The notes beneath the pieces were generated by a model. The model searched no databases, was not told the DNA's origin, and saw only the letters and a program-made list of their open reading frames with translations. From Pseudokineococcus lusitanus (GTDB lineage Bacteria > Actinomycetota > Actinomycetes > Actinomycetales > Quadrisphaeraceae): a DNA stretch of 64,000 bases. Below are positions 2,592 through 12,435 of the stretch, piece by piece (position 1 is the first letter of the stretch; each line of letters opens with the position of its first letter). The stretch covers positions 248,001-312,000 of the forward strand of contig NZ_RJKN01000004.1 in assembly GCF_003751265.1 (NCBI RefSeq). Direction: 5' to 3'. Both the position numbers and the translations under genes were made by a program.

Positions 2592-3995
2592 TCAGCCGCG
2601 GCCGGGCCCGCCGTCGCCGTCGGCGGCCGCGCCGCGGGTGACGCCCGAGCGCAGGTCGCCGCTGCCGGCGCGGCCGGCCGGGTCGCCGCCGGGCCCCTCC
2701 GGCTCCTCCTCGACGGCCTCGACGCCGATGCGGTCGGCCCGGCGGCCGTCGAGGCGCAGGACGGTGAAGCGGTGGCCGAGGTCCTCGACGACGTCGCCCT
2801 CGCCCGGCAGCCGGCCGAGCCGGTCCATGACGAAGCCGGCGAGGGTCTCGAACGAGCCCTCGGGGAGCTGGACGCCGGTCTGGTCGAGCACCTCGTCGCG
2901 GTGCAGGAGGCCGGACAGCTCGACGTGGCCCACGACCTCGGGGGCCTCGACGTCGCGGCGGTCGTGCTCGTCCTCGATGTCGCCGACGAGCTCCTCCACG
3001 AGGTCCTCGAGCGTGACGATGCCGTCGGTGCCGCCGTACTCGTCGACGACGACGGCGATGTGGCGGCGGGTGCGGCGCATCTCCGACAGCGCCGGCAGGA
3101 CCGCCTGGTTCCCGGTGACCAGGCTCACCGGGCGCATGACGTCCTGGAGGCGGCCGGTCGACCTCTCGGGGTGGCGCAGCGCGGTGAGGACGTCGCGGAC
3201 GTGGACGAAGCCGATGACGTCGTCGACGCCCTCCCCCGTCACCGGGTAGCGGGAGTGCGGGCGGTGCTCGATCTCCTGCGCCGCCTCCTCGAGGGTCTTG
3301 GCGCCGTCGAGGAACTCGACCTCGGTGCGCGGCACCATCACCTCGGCGACCCGGCGGTCCGCGGCGGCGAAGACGTCGTCGAGCAGGCGGCGCTCGTCGT
3401 CGTCGAGGTCCTCGTGCGAGGAGACCATCTCCCGCAGCTCCTCCTCGCTGACCTCGTCGCGCTCGTCGTCGGGGTTCATGCCGAGGAGACGGACGACGAG
3501 GTTGGTGGACTTCCCGAGCAACCAGATGACCGGCGTCGCGAGCACGGCGATCTTCTCCAGCGCCGGGGCGACGAGGCGCGAGACGGCGTCGGGCCTCTGC
3601 AGCGCGATGCGCTTGGGCACGAGCTCGCCGAGGACGAGCGACACGTACGAGACGAGCGCCGTGATGACGACGAGGGAGACGGTCGTCGCGACGCCCTCCG
3701 GGACGCCCCAGCCGACGAGGACCGGCGTCAGCCGTGCCGCGATGGTCGCGCCGCCGTACGCGGAGGCGAAGAAGCCCGCCGCCGTGACGCCGATCTGGAC
3801 GGCGGACAGGAAGCGGTTGGTCGAGCCGCGGAGCCGCTCCACCGCCAGGGCGCCGCGCAGGTTCTGGCCGACCATCGCCTTGACCTGGCCGTCCCGGAGG
3901 GACACGAGGGCGAGCTCGGACATCGCGAAGACACCGCCCACGAGCACGAAGACGAGGACGAGCACGATCTCCCAGCCGAGCGACATGGTCACCAT
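2592..3995 (-). CDS. CNNM/CBS-domain membrane protein (HlyC/CorC family)
   Basis: This protein has an N-terminal DUF21/CNNM membrane domain with about four hydrophobic segments, a pair of CBS domains (around RVAEVMVPRTEVEF and HIAVVVDEYGGTDG), and a C-terminal CorC_HlyC domain near residues 335-410. Such proteins are linked to Mg2+ or other divalent cation export, although the older name is haemolysin. The open frame extends further upstream but those residues are low-complexity. The ATG at 3995 (or 3986, three codons on) directly precedes the first membrane helix. The last 40 residues are Gly/Asp-rich. The stop is 6 bp before menC. Confidence 0.85.
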   Translation of the reverse strand: MVTMSLGWEIVLVLVFVLVGGVFAMSELALVSLRDGQVKAMVGQNLRGALAVERLRGSTNRFLSAVQIGVTAAGFFASAYGGATIAARLTPVLVGWGVPEGVATTVSLVVITALVSYVSLVLGELVPKRIALQRPDAVSRLVAPALEKIAVLATPVIWLLGKSTNLVVRLLGMNPDDERDEVSEEELREMVSSHEDLDDDERRLLDDVFAAADRRVAEVMVPRTEVEFLDGAKTLEEAAQEIEHRPHSRYPVTGEGVDDVIGFVHVRDVLTALRHPERSTGRLQDVMRPVSLVTGNQAVLPALSEMRRTRRHIAVVVDEYGGTDGIVTLEDLVEELVGDIEDEHDRRDVEAPEVVGHVELSGLLHRDEVLDQTGVQLPEGSFETLAGFVMDRLGRLPGEGDVVEDLGHRFTVLRLDGRRADRIGVEAVEEEPEGPGGDPAGRAGSGDLRSGVTRGAAADGDGGPGRG

Positions 3996-5035: not shown

Positions 5036-5045
5036 GCCGCGCGGG

Positions 5046-5152
5046 CTGTGCGCCACGGACCGCGGTGCACCACGTCCCGGGGCACGACCTCGAGGTCGGT
5101 GCGTCGATCTGACGGTGGACCGTCGGGTCGGCGCACCGACCTCGGCGTCAGG
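5046..5152 (+). repeat. Island-flanking double-hairpin repeat, copy A
   Basis: About 105 bp sharing roughly four of five positions, by eye, with 12332-12435 in the same orientation. It holds two dyads. The first centres on GCGGTGCACCACG (5061-5073). The second has perfect 13-bp arms, CGAGGTCGGTGCG at 5091-5103 and CGCACCGACCTCG at 5132-5144, around an inner GACGG/CCGTC stem. It lies between the stops of menB (+) and the small gene at 5159 (-), so it may act as a two-way terminator. Confidence 0.7.
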
Positions 5153-5158
5153 CTGCTG

Positions 5159-5428
5159 TCAGTCGTTGCCGAAGCAGGGGACCAGCGCCCCGGCGTCCGC
5201 CGCGGTGAGGTACGCCTCGATGGCGTCCGGCAGTGTCGGGTGCTCCCCGCCGAAGGGACCCTCCACGCTCGCACGGAAGCCCGCCATCACCCGCATCGCG
5301 TCGTCCCGAGAGCCCGCCCACGCGCGGACGTGCATCCAGGTCGCGAGCCAGTCGGCGGCGCCGGGCAAGACCTCCGGCTCGGGCTCGTCAGCCATAGGGG
5401 GTGGGACCAGGCGGACGACGCGCGCCAT
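5159..5428 (-). CDS. Small hypothetical protein
   Basis: 89 residues, not recognised. It is Ala-rich with a Trp-containing stretch (WLATWMHVRAWAG, about 28-40) and ends PCFGND. A good Shine-Dalgarno (GAGGAG) lies 9 nt before the ATG. It is the last gene of the leftward run Uma2-like / this gene, 61 bp after the Uma2-like stop, and abuts repeat copy A. Its codon usage matches the host. It could be a partner of the Uma2-like gene but nothing in the sequence proves this. Confidence 0.5.
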   Translation of the reverse strand: MARVVRLVPPPMADEPEPEVLPGAADWLATWMHVRAWAGSRDDAMRVMAGFRASVEGPFGGEHPTLPDAIEAYLTAADAGALVPCFGND

Positions 5429-5489
5429 GCCGTTCTCCTCGCTCGCTCAGGTGTGTGACGACGGTCGGCAGAGGACGCGCCGCACCACC

Positions 5490-6059
5490 TCACGGCGGCG
5501 GCACCGGCCAGACGTCGCCCAGGGGGAGGGACAGGCCCGGGAGGACTTCGCCGCCGTCGAGGACGTCGTCGCCGCGCAGCACCCGAACGACGGCGCCGTC
5601 GTGGACGACGACGGTGCGCGCCTGCGGGTCGACGACCCACACGAGCCGGACGCCGGCATCCACCCACGCGAGCGCCTTCTGGGTGACCTCGCTGGACCGG
5701 TCGCCGGGGCTGACGACCTCGGCGACGAGGTCCGGGACGACGGGCGAGAAGCCGGCGACGTCCAGCCCGGCCACCCGCTCCGCGGCGACGAAGGCGACGT
5801 CGGGCGCCCGCACCGTGTCCGGCCGCTCGGCGAGGAGGAACCCCGTCTCGGCCGCCAGCACCTCGCCGGCGCTGGTCGCCTCGGCGTGGGCGCCGATGCG
5901 CAGGAGCAGTCGAGCCGCCGTCCGCCCGTTGCGCGCGCCCGCTGGTGTCATCGCGGTCAGGACCCCCTCGACGCGCTCGACGCGCTGCCCGTCGACCGAT
6001 CTCGCCAGGAGGTCGTCGGCGGTGACGAGCGCCACCTCGCGCACGGACGTTGCGGTCAT
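5490..6059 (-). CDS. Uma2-family (DUF820) PD-(D/E)XK nuclease-like protein
   Basis: 189 residues. The restriction-endonuclease-like core is visible as RAPDVAFVA (about 103-111), then VPDLVAEVVSPGDRSSEV (about 127-144) and a VWVVDPQARTVVVH strand pair, matching the Uma2/DUF820 layout in which Asp, Glu and a later Lys form the metal site. The cellular role of this family is unclear, although it is abundant in cyanobacteria and actinobacteria. The gene has its own leaderless-type promoter and lies just downstream of the restriction-modification pair on the same strand. Confidence 0.75.
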   Translation of the reverse strand: MTATSVREVALVTADDLLARSVDGQRVERVEGVLTAMTPAGARNGRTAARLLLRIGAHAEATSAGEVLAAETGFLLAERPDTVRAPDVAFVAAERVAGLDVAGFSPVVPDLVAEVVSPGDRSSEVTQKALAWVDAGVRLVWVVDPQARTVVVHDGAVVRVLRGDDVLDGGEVLPGLSLPLGDVWPVPPP

Positions 6060-6065
6060 GACCCG

Positions 6066-6071
6066 ACGGTA
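6066..6071 (-). promoter_or_regulatory. -10 hexamer of the Uma2-like gene (leaderless type)
   Basis: TACCGT on the minus strand ends exactly 6 nt before the ATG at 6059, so transcription would begin at or next to the start codon. Confidence 0.5.
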
Positions 6072-6108
6072 GACCTGCAGCCCGCGGGCCGGGGGTGCCC
6101 GAGGACTC

Positions 6109-8835
6109 TCAGACCACCGGGAGGACGGTGAGCACCTCGTCGCCGTAGTCGTTGATCGCCTTGACGGCGATACGCCCCGTAGAGGGCACCGCGAAGGGCC
6201 GCGAACGGGTGCTGTGCAACGACTCCCACGCGGCCTCGTCGACGTCGGCCTTCAGCGCTCGCTTGAGCCGTGCGTACGGGTCGCCCGCGCCGCAGAAGTA
6301 GGCGTGCCGGACGAAGAACGACTCACCGTCGTAGTCGGTGTCGACCATCCACAGCGCGATGGAGTCCGGCTCGTCGGACCGCACCTCCCCCGTGGTCGGG
6401 TTGTAGACGTCGACGCCGCGGATCTCGACGACGACCTGGTCGGCGTCCCGCTCGACGACGATGTCGGGCTCCCCGAAGACCGTGAAGAGGTTGCCTGCCC
6501 CCGTCTTCTTGAGCAGCTCGTCGCCCATCGCGAGGTCGGTGTTCATCCGCACCAGGAGGATGGGCAGCCGGCCGAGGCGCCGCTCGGCCGCGACGGTGGC
6601 GAAGTCGCTGCCCTCGCTGGGCCGGAACTCGTCGACCGTCCCCAGCGTGCCGGCGTCGAAGGAGAAGCCGAGGACGAGCAGGAGGTCGTGCCCGGCCCCC
6701 TGCAGCGCCTCGCGCGCCGCCTGCTTGACGAGGTCGGGGCTCACGGTGCCGTACTCGGGCCCGAGGGCGACGGCGATGCGCTGCGGCGTCTCGTCCTCGG
6801 CGTCCCGGCGCGTGCCCACGGCCTGGACGGCCACGCCGGGGTGCGGCTCGAGGCTGTCGAAGACCAGCCGCTCGTCCCGGCGTCCGTTCTGGACACCGGC
6901 GGTCCGCAGGTTGTCGAGGACCGTCCGCTCGTACGTCGGCCGGTCGTCGACGACGTCGGCCCCCGCGTCGGGCGACTCCTCCGACGCCGGCTTCTCGTCC
7001 ATCTCGGTGTCGAAGGAGACCGACCGGTGCGGGGAGAGCGACTCGACGGTGAAGCGCCCGGCCACCCGGACCCGCTTCAGGTCGGTGTACGGCCGGTCGT
7101 AGAGCGTCTCGCTCTCGGCGTGCCGGGCGATGGCCGCGTCGATCTCCGCCCGCGACATGCCCTCGCGGATGTCCGGGTTGTTGGCGATCGACTTCAGCGT
7201 GACGTGCGGGACGCGCTCGTAGACGAAGCCCTGACGCAGGTCACCGGTGGACGGCGTCGCGGGCACCCGCTCGCCGGTGAGCTCGGCCTCCTTGGCCCGA
7301 CCCGCGGGCGAGTCGGCGAGGAGGTAGTACGGGTACTGAGCGCTCATGATCCGCTGCCGGGCAAGTGCCAGCGCGACACGCGAGGTGTCGATAGTGATCC
7401 ACCTGCGACCCCAGTGCTCGGCTACCACCGCCGTCGTTCCAGAACCACACGTGGGGTCAAGCACTAGATCACCAGGATCGGTGAACATAAGCAAGCAGCG
7501 CTGGACCACCTTCTGCCCTGTCTGAACCACGTAAACCTGAGGTTCCGTGAAACTACCAGTCCCCGTGTCAAGCCAGACATTATCCAAAGGGGTGGTTGGG
7601 TTGTCTGATGCCAAAAGGACGCTCGCCAGTGACTTTCCGGACACTTTGATTCGCCCCACCCTTGCCAACACGTCCATGGCGCCGCCGGGCGACGGGTCAT
7701 ACTTCCAGTGATTGTTACCAGGCACCGAGAACGACCGACCGGCGAACTCGTAGGGGCTACTGCGCGCCGTTTGGAGATCCTGTGAGAGCAGGGGCCCGAG
7801 CCGACCGATTTGCCAGCCCGTAGGGAGAGGGTCGCGACCTGTCATCTCATCAGGAGTCATACGTCGATGGTGAGAGAGATCAGGTGAGAAAATCTGCGTG
7901 TAGTTCTTCGCGCCCCTCTCACCCGGTCGCTTCGCAGCCAACAAGCGCCGCATCTTATGAACCGATGGCGACTTGGCGAATATGAGCAAGTAGTCTACAA
8001 CAGAGGGCATTCCAGTGGCGTTCTGGCTACTTGTCTTATTGAAAACGATGCTACCCAGGTACCCATCGGCACCGAAGACTTCTTCCGCCACCAGACGGAC
8101 CGTGTGCGCATTGCGCTCACCGATCTGCACCACCAGCGTGCCACTATCCGTAAGCAGTTCCCTCGCGACAGCGAAGCGATCACGCAGGTAGTTCAGGTAG
8201 GAGTGGATACCGTGCTCCCACGTGTCGCGGAAGGCCTTGATCTGTTCGACTTGCCTACTCACATCCGAGAGACGGTCCCGCACCTCCCGACTGCCCGCAC
8301 GAGTCTGCCAATTGGACGAAAATTCGATGCCCTACGGCGGGTCCATGTAGACGCACTGGACTTGTCCGCGCAGGTCTTCGCGCTCGGCGAGGGAGGCCAT
8401 GACCTCAAGTGCGTCCCCGAGGATCATGCGGTTCGACCAGTTGGCCTCATGCCGGTAGTACTCGACGGCCTCGAAGCCCTCAAGCCCGTCGAAGTCGTCG
8501 AAGTCGTCGAAAAGCGAGGCCGCTTCCTCGGCCGCCGGTGCCGTCGAGGCGCGCCGCAGGTCTTCCACGAGGGCCCGGGGGTCGACCTTCTCCTGGATGT
8601 AGAGCGGTGGAGCCTGCACCTCGAGGCGGTCGTCCTGCGCGTCCTTGCCGCGCCACACGAGCTGAGGATCCAGCGCGACGTCGCGCTCGACGCCGAGGAC
8701 GCGCGGTGCCTGCACGGACTCGTCGACGAAGTCGCGACCGTCCGCGGTGGGGATGTTCGACCGCTTGGCGGCGTGGTCGAAAGACTCGATGGGCACGGGC
8801 CCGGCCGGCGTGTCAGTGGTTCGGCGCGGCGGCAT
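6109..8835 (-). pseudogene. Site-specific DNA methyltransferase (type III Mod-like), interrupted by TAG in its DPPY motif
   Basis: A single reading frame runs from the ATG at 8835 to the stop at 6109 (908 residues) with one internal stop, TAG at 8332-8334, exactly where the Tyr codon of the catalytic DPPY motif should be: VYMDPP-stop-GIEFSSNW. A GTG at 8283 could restart translation, but that product would lack the motif. Further on the frame has LDPTCGSGTTAVVA (about 7430-7470), the SAM-binding motif I, so the order is motif IV, recognition region, motif I, as in beta-class N6-adenine or N4-cytosine enzymes. The ATG overlaps the helicase gene stop by 23 nt. Bases about 7385-8335 are much lower in GC than both ends. 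Either the gene is dead, or Tyr insertion at an amber codon would be needed. Confidence 0.85.
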
Positions 8836-11800
8836 CGGCCAGCTCCTCGTCGTTGATGTCGTGGTCGAAGAGCCCGCCGGACAGGACCGTCGGCAGGCCG
8901 GTGATCGGCTCGTCGGCGCGCAGGCGCTCGACGGCGTGCGCCAGGACGCTCTTCGTGCTGACGGGGTCGTCGACCTCGACGTACCCCCAGCGGCCGAAGC
9001 CCTGGTGGTTGTTGACCGCGGCGCACCACTGGTTCCGCGCGGTCGCCGCCTTCTCGGCGCGCTCCGTCTGCGACTTCCGCCCGCCCGACACCTCGAGCAA
9101 CAGGTGCCGCTCGACGCCGGAGCCGTCGGGCGTGAGTCGGACGACGAAGTCCGGCAGGTATCGACGGGCAGCACCCTTGTGCAGGTACGGGACAGCCAGC
9201 TCGAGGTGGTCGTTCTTGACGTAGGCCGCGACGTCCTTCGACGCCTCCAACGCCCCGGCCGCGATCTGCTCCCACGTGTTGCCGTCCGGGCCGTCGAGGA
9301 CGACGCCGTCCACGTGGCACTTCTCGGGGTCCGTCTCGATGACGCGTTTGGTCGTCGAGAAGTCGACGACGTCGGTGCACCCCGTCCGGCCAAGAGCGCT
9401 GAAGACCGGGAGCACGAGCGGCTCGCGACCACCCTTCGGCTGGTTGATCGCCTGGTAGATCTGCTCGGCCGCCTCGGACCGCCGCGTCCCGATGAGGAAG
9501 AGCCCCGGGAAGGTCGACTGCTCGTACTCCACCCGCGTCCTGAGCCACTCCTCCGCGATGCGGACGAGCTGGGGGAAGAGCCACGGACGGGTGCCGCCGG
9601 GGTCGTTGTCGACGGCGAAGCGGCGCATCAGCGCCTTGGCCAGCTCGAAGGCGACCGTCCGCTCCCGCGCCCGCTGGAAGCGACCGAGGTCGTGGACCTC
9701 TTCGCTGCCGATGAGGCCGGCCACCTCGGTGAGGGTGGCGACCTCCTCGGTGCGGACCCGGTGCACGGGAACCTCGCTGAGGTCCGCGGAGACCCGGTGG
9801 TCAGGGAGCTCCACGCGGTACCCGTCCAGGCGCGGGAAGGTGATCCGGGCGGCGCTCCGGTTCTCCTGCGCCTTGACGGCCTGCGGCTGTCGCCCGGGCA
9901 CCGGGTCGGCGGCGGGCCGGTCGCTGGGGATGAAGCTGAAGGGGACGCCGTAGACCTCGGCGTACTCCGGCGCGAAGCGGCCGTCCTCGCCGACCACGTA
10001 CGAGCGGCGGCGCAGCCCCCGACCGACCACCTGCTCGCAGAGCAGCTGGGAGCCGAAGGCCCGGACCCCGAGGACGTGGGTCACCGTGTTGGCGTCCCAG
10101 CCCTCCGAGAGCATCGAGACGCTCACCACGCACCGGACGCCCGCGCCCAGGCGCCCCGGCTTGCCAACCGTGTTGAGGACCTCCCGCAGCAGGTCGGCGT
10201 CGTCGAGGTCGTCGGCCGTACGGCCGGTGCGCGCGACGTGCTCCGCGCGGAAGGCGGCGATCTCCTCGCCGGCCGCCGTGCGGAAGTCGGGGGTGAGCGC
10301 CTCTCCGGACTCGAGCTGCGCCGAGTCGACGAGGATCGTCCGCGGGCGGGAGAGGTGCCGGCCGTCGACGACGTTGCTGAGCAGCGGCAGCTGGCCGGGG
10401 ACGTGGACCGGTGGACCGTCCTCTCCCCCGGCCTCGACCGGCTTCGTCCAGCCGGCGATCGTGTCGTACACCCACCGGGACACCAGCGTGTTGGGGCAGA
10501 CGACGATGATCACCGGCGGCGTCGACCCCGCCCGTAGCGAGTCCTCGCGGCGCTGCGCCTCCCACCGCTCGAACGCCCGCTCGTAGGAGGCGTAGAGGCT
10601 CTTCAGCGCGCCGTCCAGCGTGGGCGGCAGCTCGCGCGTCTCGACGAGGCGCACGTCCTTCGCCACCCGCTTCGGCAGCACGTCACCGACGTGGTCCCAG
10701 AGGTTGAGGTAGGCGACGGTGTCGCCCTCGGAGTCGTCGGCGACCGGGACGCGGGGGATCTTGACGATCCCCGATTCGATGGCGTCGAGCAGCGAGAAGT
10801 CGCTGACCACCCACGGGAAGATGTAGCCCTCCGGGTAGCCCGAGCCGCTGAGGAAGAACGGCGTCGCCGAGAGGTCGTAGACCGCCTTGACGTCGAAGCG
10901 CTCCGCCACCGCCCGGATCCCGGAGAACCACACCCCGGCCTCGTCGTTGCGGGCGAGCGCCTCCTTCTTGTCGGCGCCCTTGAGGTCCTCCGCCCGGCTC
11001 GCGCCCAGGACCGCAGCGGCCGCCGTCGCGTAGCAGTGGTGCGCCTCGTCGTTGAGGACGACCAGCGGGCCGCCGTCGCCGGGACGCCGCGAAGCCATCC
11101 CCCGCAGGACCCGGGCGACCATCATCGGCGGCGTCTCGGTGAACGGGTCCCCGTCGACCCGCGCGGTGACGAGGCGCCGAGTGTCGGCGCTGATGCCGCG
11201 GCCCTCCTGCGTCGAGCGCAGCAGGAAGCTGTGGAAGTTGGTGACCGTCAGGGAGGCACGGCGCATGTGCGGCCAGAGGTCCGCGGGCACGAGGTCGCGC
11301 TCGGCGTAGTAGCTGCCCTTGTCGGTGGGCACGAGGACCCGCAGGCGGTCCCGGATGGTGATGCCCGGGGCGACCACGAGGAAGCGCGTCGAGAAGCGCG
11401 GGTCCTTGGGACGGGCCACCTTGTTGAGGGTCTGCCAGGCGATGAGCATGGCCATGACGACCGTCTTGCCCGAGCCCGTCGCCATCTTCAGCGCGACGCG
11501 GGGCAGGCCCCGGTTGAACTCGCCGTTGAGGCGCTGCAGCTCCTGGCGCACCCAGTCGTTGCCGTCACGGGCTGCCGCCTCGGCGATGTAGATCGCCGTC
11601 TCCGCGGCCTCCCGCTGGGCGAAAAGGACGCGGTTGCTGCGCTCGGGGTCGGCCCAGTACCGCAGGAGCCGCCCCGTCGTCTCGGTGACGTGCGGGTAGT
11701 CGCGGCGACGCCAGAGGTCGACGACCTGCCGGATCCGGTCGACCTGGTCGTTGCGCTCGCGACGCTCGTCGGTGCGGTGCAGCTCGAGCTCGGTCTGCCC

Positions 11801-11962
11801 CGACACCTTGCGCTTGCGCGGGCGCGGGACGGGCACCCACGACTCGCTGCGCCGCCGGCCCTGGACGACGTCGTCCTGGATGCCACCGCGGTCGTCGAGG
11901 CGCCAGTGCCTCGACGGGATGTCGTAGGGGCTCCCCAGGATGGGGTTGTCCGTCGCCGACAT
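8813..11962 (-). CDS. Type III-like restriction subunit: SF2 helicase with C-terminal nuclease
   Basis: 1049 residues and apparently intact. The N-terminal segment (SRHWRLDDRGG) matches the restriction helicases paired with this kind of methyltransferase (I believe the BPTD_3080-type family). Helicase motifs: Walker A ATGSGKTV (161-168), DEAH at 305-308, SAT at 365-367, and QVVGRGLRR (644-652). A C-terminal PD-(D/E)XK-like site is seen as PDF (937-939) and LLLEVSGG (954-961), with Ser959 where Lys is usual; Lys963 follows. It is the first gene of the pair, with the methyltransferase overlapping its end. If the methyltransferase is inactive, its survival implies either no independent cutting or protection by another enzyme. 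Confidence 0.88.
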   Translation of the reverse strand: MSATDNPILGSPYDIPSRHWRLDDRGGIQDDVVQGRRRSESWVPVPRPRKRKVSGQTELELHRTDERRERNDQVDRIRQVVDLWRRRDYPHVTETTGRLLRYWADPERSNRVLFAQREAAETAIYIAEAAARDGNDWVRQELQRLNGEFNRGLPRVALKMATGSGKTVVMAMLIAWQTLNKVARPKDPRFSTRFLVVAPGITIRDRLRVLVPTDKGSYYAERDLVPADLWPHMRRASLTVTNFHSFLLRSTQEGRGISADTRRLVTARVDGDPFTETPPMMVARVLRGMASRRPGDGGPLVVLNDEAHHCYATAAAAVLGASRAEDLKGADKKEALARNDEAGVWFSGIRAVAERFDVKAVYDLSATPFFLSGSGYPEGYIFPWVVSDFSLLDAIESGIVKIPRVPVADDSEGDTVAYLNLWDHVGDVLPKRVAKDVRLVETRELPPTLDGALKSLYASYERAFERWEAQRREDSLRAGSTPPVIIVVCPNTLVSRWVYDTIAGWTKPVEAGGEDGPPVHVPGQLPLLSNVVDGRHLSRPRTILVDSAQLESGEALTPDFRTAAGEEIAAFRAEHVARTGRTADDLDDADLLREVLNTVGKPGRLGAGVRCVVSVSMLSEGWDANTVTHVLGVRAFGSQLLCEQVVGRGLRRRSYVVGEDGRFAPEYAEVYGVPFSFIPSDRPAADPVPGRQPQAVKAQENRSAARITFPRLDGYRVELPDHRVSADLSEVPVHRVRTEEVATLTEVAGLIGSEEVHDLGRFQRARERTVAFELAKALMRRFAVDNDPGGTRPWLFPQLVRIAEEWLRTRVEYEQSTFPGLFLIGTRRSEAAEQIYQAINQPKGGREPLVLPVFSALGRTGCTDVVDFSTTKRVIETDPEKCHVDGVVLDGPDGNTWEQIAAGALEASKDVAAYVKNDHLELAVPYLHKGAARRYLPDFVVRLTPDGSGVERHLLLEVSGGRKSQTERAEKAATARNQWCAAVNNHQGFGRWGYVEVDDPVSTKSVLAHAVERLRADEPITGLPTVLSGGLFDHDINDEELADAAAPNH

Positions 11963-12331
11963 CTCACGCCCCCGCGTCTCGACCTCCCGACCGCCAGCAG
12001 TGCCGGAAGCCGTCTACAGGCGGCTGACACTAGACGAGCCGGGCGGCACGGCCGTCGGTGTGCCACACGCCTCTCCGCCCGAGCAAACGCCGGCGGAGCG
12101 ACTGGCGCCCCGATCCGGAGCTGCGCGAACCCAAGGGCTCACGCAGGAGCGGGTGGCGGAGGGCCGACATCGGCCGGCATTGCCAGCAGCCTCTCGAGAG
12201 AAATCTCGGCAACCCTCAGGAGCGAGCGCTGGCGGGCCCGACGATCAGGCCGCTCCTCCCTCGCCGAGACGCCGGCGTGCTCGTCGTGAACCTCGTCAAC
12301 AGCGCGGCGCACCGTCCGGGCGACCAAGCCG
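11963..12331. other. Intergenic stretch upstream of the restriction gene
   Basis: No clear gene. It should carry the promoter of the leftward restriction operon: TAGTGT on the minus strand near 12030 is a possible -10 about 65 nt before the ATG, and GGGGGCGTGAG abuts the start as a weak ribosome site. CTCTCGAGAG near 12193 is a short palindrome. Its base composition is less GC-rich than the flanking host genes. A weak open frame is listed separately. Confidence 0.4.
12139..12327 (-). CDS. Possible small ORF or gene remnant upstream of the restriction operon
   Basis: A 62-codon frame from TTG at 12327 (or a GTG five codons on), reading LVARTVRRAVDEVHDEH at its start and EISLERLLAMPADV near its end. 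It uses codons such as GTT, ATT, TCT and GCA that are rare in the host, which argues either for foreign coding DNA or for non-coding DNA. No family recognised. It lies immediately left of repeat copy B, on the same strand as the restriction gene. Low confidence; it may be chance. Confidence 0.15.
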   Translation of the reverse strand: MVARTVRRAVDEVHDEHAGVSAREERPDRRARQRSLLRVAEISLERLLAMPADVGPPPPAPA

Positions 12332-12435
12332 GTGCGCTCAGGACGCGGTGCACCGCGTCCGGAGCGCACGGGCTGGAGGGCGGTGCGTCGATGTGACGGC
12401 GGTCCGTCGGATCGACGCACCGACCTCGACGTCAG
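12332..12435 (+). repeat. Island-flanking double-hairpin repeat, copy B
   Basis: Second copy of the repeat at 5046-5152. Its first half, 12332-12369, is a 38-bp inverted repeat with a single mismatch whose core GGACGCGGTGCACCGCGTCC (12341-12360) is perfect. The second half has 11-bp perfect arms GGTGCGTCGAT (12382-12392) and ATCGACGCACC (12411-12421) enclosing GACGG/CCGTC. The copy ends at the stop codon of the MFS gene (12432-12434), which is also a leftward gene end, as for copy A. Confidence 0.75.

Follow-up and report, generated by a model that had tools for sequence, protein, structure and literature searches.

The window, a 64,000-nt stretch of Pseudokineococcus lusitanus DNA analysed as a whole, contains a 7.4-kb island composed of a small ORF, a presumed Uma2-like gene, a methyltransferase gene (mod) and a restriction gene (res). 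The genes on either side are presumed to be menB and an MFS gene. The features referred to below are listed here.

5036 to 12431, no strand: island between the presumed menB and MFS genes, absent at this site from 3/3 same-genus genomes
5082 to 5156, plus strand: left one of two 75-nt hairpin repeats that flank the island and share 84% identity
12366 to 12440, plus strand: right copy of the 75-nt hairpin repeat, a direct repeat with an internal hairpin
8813 to 11962, minus strand: res, intact, a restriction endonuclease of the BPTD_3080 family; its end overlaps the start of mod by 23 nt
6109 to 8835, minus strand: mod, a Type III-like beta-class amino-methyltransferase interrupted by a nonsense codon, identified by Pfam, PADLOC and PDB profile matches
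8332 to 8334, minus strand: TAG standing in frame as codon 168 of mod, where DPPY (motif IV) has its Tyr; placed by translation and by homologues
8335 to 8835, minus strand: N-terminal remnant of mod, still translatable, 167 codons ending in YMDPP
6109 to 8283, minus strand: downstream open frame from GTG 8283, 724 aa, with the recognition domain, motif I and the C-terminal part and without motif IV
7363 to 8412, minus strand: lower-GC block of mod that was probably replaced (residues about 142-491), delimited by GC3, GC profile and missense departures

The two flanking genes are adjacent in 3/3 same-genus genomes, where aligned regions place them about 110-155 nt apart. The hairpin repeats at the ends of the island could be a bidirectional terminator or an insertion target. 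An element similar to them lies elsewhere in the sampled genome (L165:7137-7192). A phage origin was considered and rejected: a scan of viral_contigs gave no relative, and the matches in 66 records of a phage collection are distant and all fall short of 80% coverage of the query.

Profile matches identify mod on both sides of its stop codon. The PADLOC model MTase_III (PDLC03632) matches the part after the stop (2e-188) and the part before it (1.5e-41) in order, and the two are therefore parts of one interrupted gene. Pfam N6_N4_Mtase matches the part after the stop (1.6e-24) and gives no match for the part before it. A profile built from 15 Mod homologues finds Mod subunits of solved structure in the PDB, namely 6k0w (1.3e-26) and EcoP15I 4zcf (1.6e-23). 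The gene has the beta-class layout, in which motif IV is followed by the recognition domain and then by motif I; in the window copy motif IV is interrupted. Its best full-length homologue is ~56% identical, and a protein search of the same genome for silent recognition-domain cassettes returned only this copy of mod. An AlphaFold2 model of the read-through Mod chain reached a mean pLDDT of 57.5, too low for use.

The TAG occupies 8334-8332 on the minus strand in the context TACATGGACCCGCCGTAGGGCATCGAA. When 8835-6109 is translated, the 909 steps include a single internal stop (MDPP-stop-GIEFSSNWQ) besides the terminal one, leaving a frame of 908 codons that is open except at codon 168. A whole-genome profile search likewise returned a continuous mod match over model positions 8-870, flagged "1 TAG" inside. 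The earlier note, made from the letters of the window, had described a TAG at 8332-8334 in a single frame from 8835 to 6109, and retranslation bears it out. Its placement of the stop at the tyrosine of DPPY also holds when homologues are aligned at this codon, which encodes Tyr in 49/49 distinct places (33 TAC and 16 TAT) and is a stop in none. These codons are a sample, drawn from every fetched locus with a match covering the position: the codon was readable at 73 places, 24 duplicates were dropped, and the 49 that remain represent 48 genes, one of them in two overlapping loci. The plasmid part of the sample comes from 13 fetched regions, as against 114 plasmid records matched. A gene start at GTG 8283, suggested earlier in case homologues had no DPPY here, was rejected because homologues align from near the N-terminus and have the tyrosine in all 49 places. 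In two other relatives mod also has an in-frame stop, a TGA near query residue 69 (L184) and a TAA at residue 445 (L044).

The step from a Tyr codon to TAG is here a transversion, a point against a nonsense mutation. In the frame, 197 codons could become a stop by a single substitution; their codon weights sum to 79, and a random nonsense change would fall on codon 168 about 0.8% of the time. This figure is not meaningful, because the codon was chosen post hoc and any catalytic codon would seem equally striking, and because a stop at any position costs the gene all that follows it. The stress that was first put on the catalytic residue is misplaced: the recognition domain and the C-terminal part are lost with it, and the position of the stop on the catalytic Tyr adds nothing to the effect of truncation. 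Phase variation of mod by a simple repeat was also considered. Tandem Repeats Finder, run on 6100-8900, found no repeat at the stop and two weak arrays elsewhere, of period 27 (6424-6473) and period 9 (8461-8511). Both periods are multiples of three; the second array, a weak tandem repeat of about FDDFDDFDGLEGFE within mod, thus cannot switch the frame.

The partner gene is well preserved. Res scores 1077.1 bits against NF046055 (BPTD_3080 family), above the cut-off of 800, and keeps 86/86 positions that are invariant in at least 28/29 homologues, in agreement with the first impression that the restriction gene is intact. The SF2 helicase motifs are conserved (the ATGSGKT, NDEAHH, SATPF and VGRGLRR regions). 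ResIII (PF04851) matches at 4.4e-9, the PADLOC REase_III match is weak (2.5e-6), and the PDB holds no solved relative of Res by sequence at E 0.001. In the candidate nuclease motif LPDFVV...LLLEVSG (PD..EVSG, residues 936-960), Ser replaces the Lys of PD-(D/E)XK; the same replacement is seen in aligned actinobacterial BPTD_3080 homologues, whereas several others read EVKG, EIKG or ETKG, Lys being present in several proteobacterial and distant ones.

The order of the genes also departs from the usual Type III arrangement of mod before res, as res lies upstream and overlaps mod by 23 nt. The order res-mod recurs in GA1, JCM 15477 and DN22. Gene order varies in the family, as some distant homologues (L041, L043 and L132) have mod first. 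The system is called Type III-like because of the res-mod order, the PD..EVSG motif without Lys and the lack of a solved sequence relative of Res. Type III systems proper are defined biochemically by cleavage that depends on ATP and on Mod, Res and two inverted sites. The name BPTD_3080 was absent from the literature searched. Downstream of the BPTD_3080 system, Methylomagnum (L166:7508-10016) has genes that are annotated as CBASS phospholipase and nucleotidyltransferase; a 3'-5' exonuclease or a UvrD-like helicase takes this place in Pseudomonas avellanae (L169), Phenylobacterium (L143) and Sphingomonas (L144).

Interruption of mod is not confined to the window. Profile searches of two partly overlapping sets of 394 and 396 genomes, with E no greater than 1e-60, found mod in 15 distinct genomes: it is continuous in 9, in split frames in 4, a C-terminal remnant in 1, and the last is the genome of the window. 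Some of the split genes are likely to be assembly faults, because all four, out of six interrupted genes, come from drafts below 90% completeness, in which frameshifts may be errors, a run of N stands at one of the breaks (L121), and one split-mod genome also has a split res (L123). Beside the run of N, and also beside the split mod of G345 (L122), res is continuous; the stretch fetched from G293 (L120) yielded no res. A further case comes from plasmids of Rhodococcus. When the plasmid of Rhodococcus GA1 (L095) is compared with that of R. ruber YC-YT1 (L097), res is identical at 3159/3159 nt, and mod is identical over 995 + 1741 nt aligned in two pieces, split only by an IS3. The R. ruber locus (L097:3428-7725), with mod split and res intact, thus forms a natural knock-out pair with GA1.

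These cases bear on whether the TAG is a sequencing or assembly error, in which event the real gene would have a Tyr codon and the system would be active. We regard such an error as unlikely, although its probability is appreciable. The lesion is one isolated substitution in a GC-rich context within an otherwise clean, conserved frame, as an error would be. There is also precedent in the methylase pseudogenes of M. jannaschii that arose from sequencing errors, shown for MjaV and inferred for MjaIV according to the available text of PMC3488263. In addition, the recognition block could be ambiguous to assemble, as the relative with the run of N has it there. Against an error, the assembly, in 19 contigs with 98.08% completeness and 0 contamination, appears to be of good quality, and consensus base errors that produce a stop are rare, whereas interruption of mod recurs in the family. 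A composition scan of 464 kb for interrupted genes gave dozens of chance-like matches in this GC-rich genome; as it is not specific, it is uninformative on assembly quality, and its stop-codon tally is the one part of it relied on here. Elsewhere in the genomes compared, an MFS match was flagged as containing a TAG; this was dismissed, as the TAG lies upstream of the apparent coding start of that gene.

Close to the stop is the upstream edge of a block of lower GC that spans the end of the region before motif IV, the catalytic half and the recognition domain, up to motif I. GC3 is 0.68 inside the block and 0.95 outside it. Splitting the gene by GC3 gives a delta lnL of 59.9, whereas none of 60 permutations on a coarser grid exceeded 10.2, and within 2 log units the block starts at residues 136-171 and ends at 490-503. 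Departures from conservation are concentrated in the same part of the gene. Among 119 positions invariant in 22 homologues, mod departs at 8, the stop and seven missense changes, and all seven missense changes fall in residues 142-386, within the block (the chance that all would fall in the part up to residue 420 is 0.012). In leave-one-out controls over the whole gene, homologues depart at 0-8 such positions (actinobacterial ones at 0-5, and L042 at 8), so a total of 8 is high but not unique. Across residues 168-420, homologues depart at 0-2 invariant positions as against 7 here, including the stop. Residues 168-260 have a mean identity of 59% to 14 actinobacterial homologues, which share 76% among themselves with a minimum of 62%.

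Uniform decay of mod was rejected as the cause of this divergent segment, and replacement of a block fits better, because the seven missense changes cluster and coincide with the GC block. The lower-GC block was probably acquired by exchange. A search for its donor found none, the closest matches being about 50-51% identical, and several homologues also have lower GC over this region.

A functional reading of the TAG, namely low-level insertion of an amino acid by a suppressor or near-cognate tRNA, would make methylation depend on the fidelity of translation. The fully open frame after the stop, with 54/54 invariant positions kept from residue 421 on, speaks for such read-through. It also has a historical parallel, as misreading of a stop codon was once proposed to control EcoP1 restriction, although by the account in the available text of PMC3874151 later sequence pointed to a different mechanism. 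The translation machinery of this genome gives it no support. Among 46 Rfam tRNA matches of the genome, examined with ARAGORN, 0/46 have a CUA anticodon, with a small chance that a tRNA is missing from an assembly that is 98.08% complete; the sole "tag" anticodon belongs to a tRNA-Leu that reads CUA. A DNA search found a single tRNA-Tyr, two further matches to the query being stretches of 18-19 nt inside tRNA-Arg genes. RF1 is present (453 bits against a cut-off of 423), and TAG is an ordinary terminator, closing 28/346 coding-like ORFs in the 464 kb, alongside 316 for TGA and 2 for TAA. Moreover, the stop is conserved in 0/49 distinct homologous places, and the 94 nt from its second base have no unusual fold (z 0.70 against shuffles). 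The amber Tyr suppressor offered in the earlier note is thus not supported, and read-through is very improbable, with the proviso that low-level misreading by near-cognate tRNAs would leave no trace in sequence. Even less credit is due to its elaborated form, an error-gated restriction system in which Mod would be made only by rare misreading of UAG at the catalytic Tyr, with protection and restriction in a res+ cell both depending on fidelity. A literature search, judged by title and the start of the abstract, found no paper on amber read-through of a restriction methylase.

The open frame downstream could also, in principle, be translated separately. In that event re-initiation at GTG 8283, the start of a frame that begins 48 nt after the TAG, would yield a second polypeptide complementing the N-terminal piece, and the enzyme would work as two chains. 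This is highly implausible. The cut falls inside DPP|Y and leaves the Tyr missing from both pieces, and the GGAGG sequence overlaps GTG 8283 rather than lying upstream at the usual distance. Mod is one chain in 9/15 genomes, and codon 168 is not the place of the break in any other. Furthermore, a Mod that recognizes DNA without methylating it would be expected to be lethal together with an active Res, by the precedent of the EcoP1 c2 mutants.

The TAG is thus best explained, with good though not full confidence, as a recent nonsense mutation in mod that has turned off a two-gene Type III-like restriction-modification island of mosaic make-up, acquired horizontally. Ending at codon 168, translation would yield a stub of 167 residues, with neither the tyrosine of DPPY nor the recognition domain, AdoMet motif and C-terminal part. 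Without Mod there would be neither methylation nor a Mod-Res complex, and the intact Res could not be aimed at DNA; loss of Mod would then switch off the whole system without being lethal. Res is expected to stay silent because Type III nucleases need Mod, restriction requiring both subunits as stated in the available text of PMC8259958 and PMC3498834. Truncation is a tolerated way to lose the methylase, since a Mod of the r+ m- type is lethal: EcoP1 c2 mutants destroy the host chromosome, as described in the same portion of PMC3874151. By this precedent, a mere catalytic change in Mod would be worse than its truncation.

This explanation presupposes that the TAG base is real and that Res of the BPTD_3080 family depends on Mod; the dependence is presumed, as it is taken from other Type III enzymes. 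The strain would then be phenotypically r- m-. The stop is called recent on a single ground, the absence of further lesions. Possible stops downstream of the TAG carry a weight of 64.3, and by a simple Poisson estimate neutral divergence since the stop would be under about 5%. Part of the earlier reading has stood, namely the stop, its frame, its place in DPPY, the intact res and a recent null; of the options listed then, the one with most support, from the single TAG, Tyr in 49/49 places and the intact Res, is a null that the cell tolerates since its nuclease cannot act without Mod. Suppressor read-through is not supported, and neither is protection by a second methyltransferase of the same Pfam family, since a search for PF01555 finds mod as the only match in the genome.

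If real, the stop would offer a clean single-substitution example of a Type III-like system that dies through Mod, while its Res stays intact and does no harm. This case and the IS3 insertion in Rhodococcus both suggest that BPTD_3080-family Res depends on Mod. For annotators, it suggests that an intact res gene alone is not proof of a restriction-proficient genome. The current view of restriction-modification and of stop codons is unchanged.

Several known systems resemble this one in part. EcoP1I and EcoP15I share adjacent genes, SF2 helicase motifs in Res and a variable central recognition block, and the window Mod is related to that of EcoP15I by sequence profile (1.6e-23). They differ in that the window res lies upstream of mod, Mod has 908 codons rather than 644 residues, and Res has no PDB match at E 0.001 and a PD..EVSG motif without the usual Lys. 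Replacement of a recognition block has been described for modA alleles in the available text of PMC3311624, and the divergence and GC of the block in mod would fit a replacement of that kind. Naturally inactive Type III Mods include the Type IIIB system of C. acnes H1 (PMC8989293) and MmyCI of M. mycoides (PMC3498834). As far as the available text of these papers goes, the former was inactivated by a deletion and has a damaged res as well, in contrast to the single substitution in the window, and the latter depends on a phase-variable AG repeat, whereas no repeat occurs at the site in the window. The R. ruber YC-YT1 copy is closer, with an intact BPTD_3080 Res and an inactivated mod, although its IS3 lies in the recognition-domain region and the window mod has a stop codon instead. 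Closest of kind are the 74 systems noted in the available text of PMC3488263, in which a full-length restriction gene accompanies a possibly inactive methylase that is truncated or frameshifted. As in those systems, the window has a full-length res beside a methylase broken by a premature stop, a single PF01555 match and thus no other candidate methylase of that family in the genome, and intact orthologous systems elsewhere; the present system is Type III-like, and its stop happens to fall in DPPY. The case is therefore another instance of a known form of decay, an intact restriction gene beside a broken methylase.
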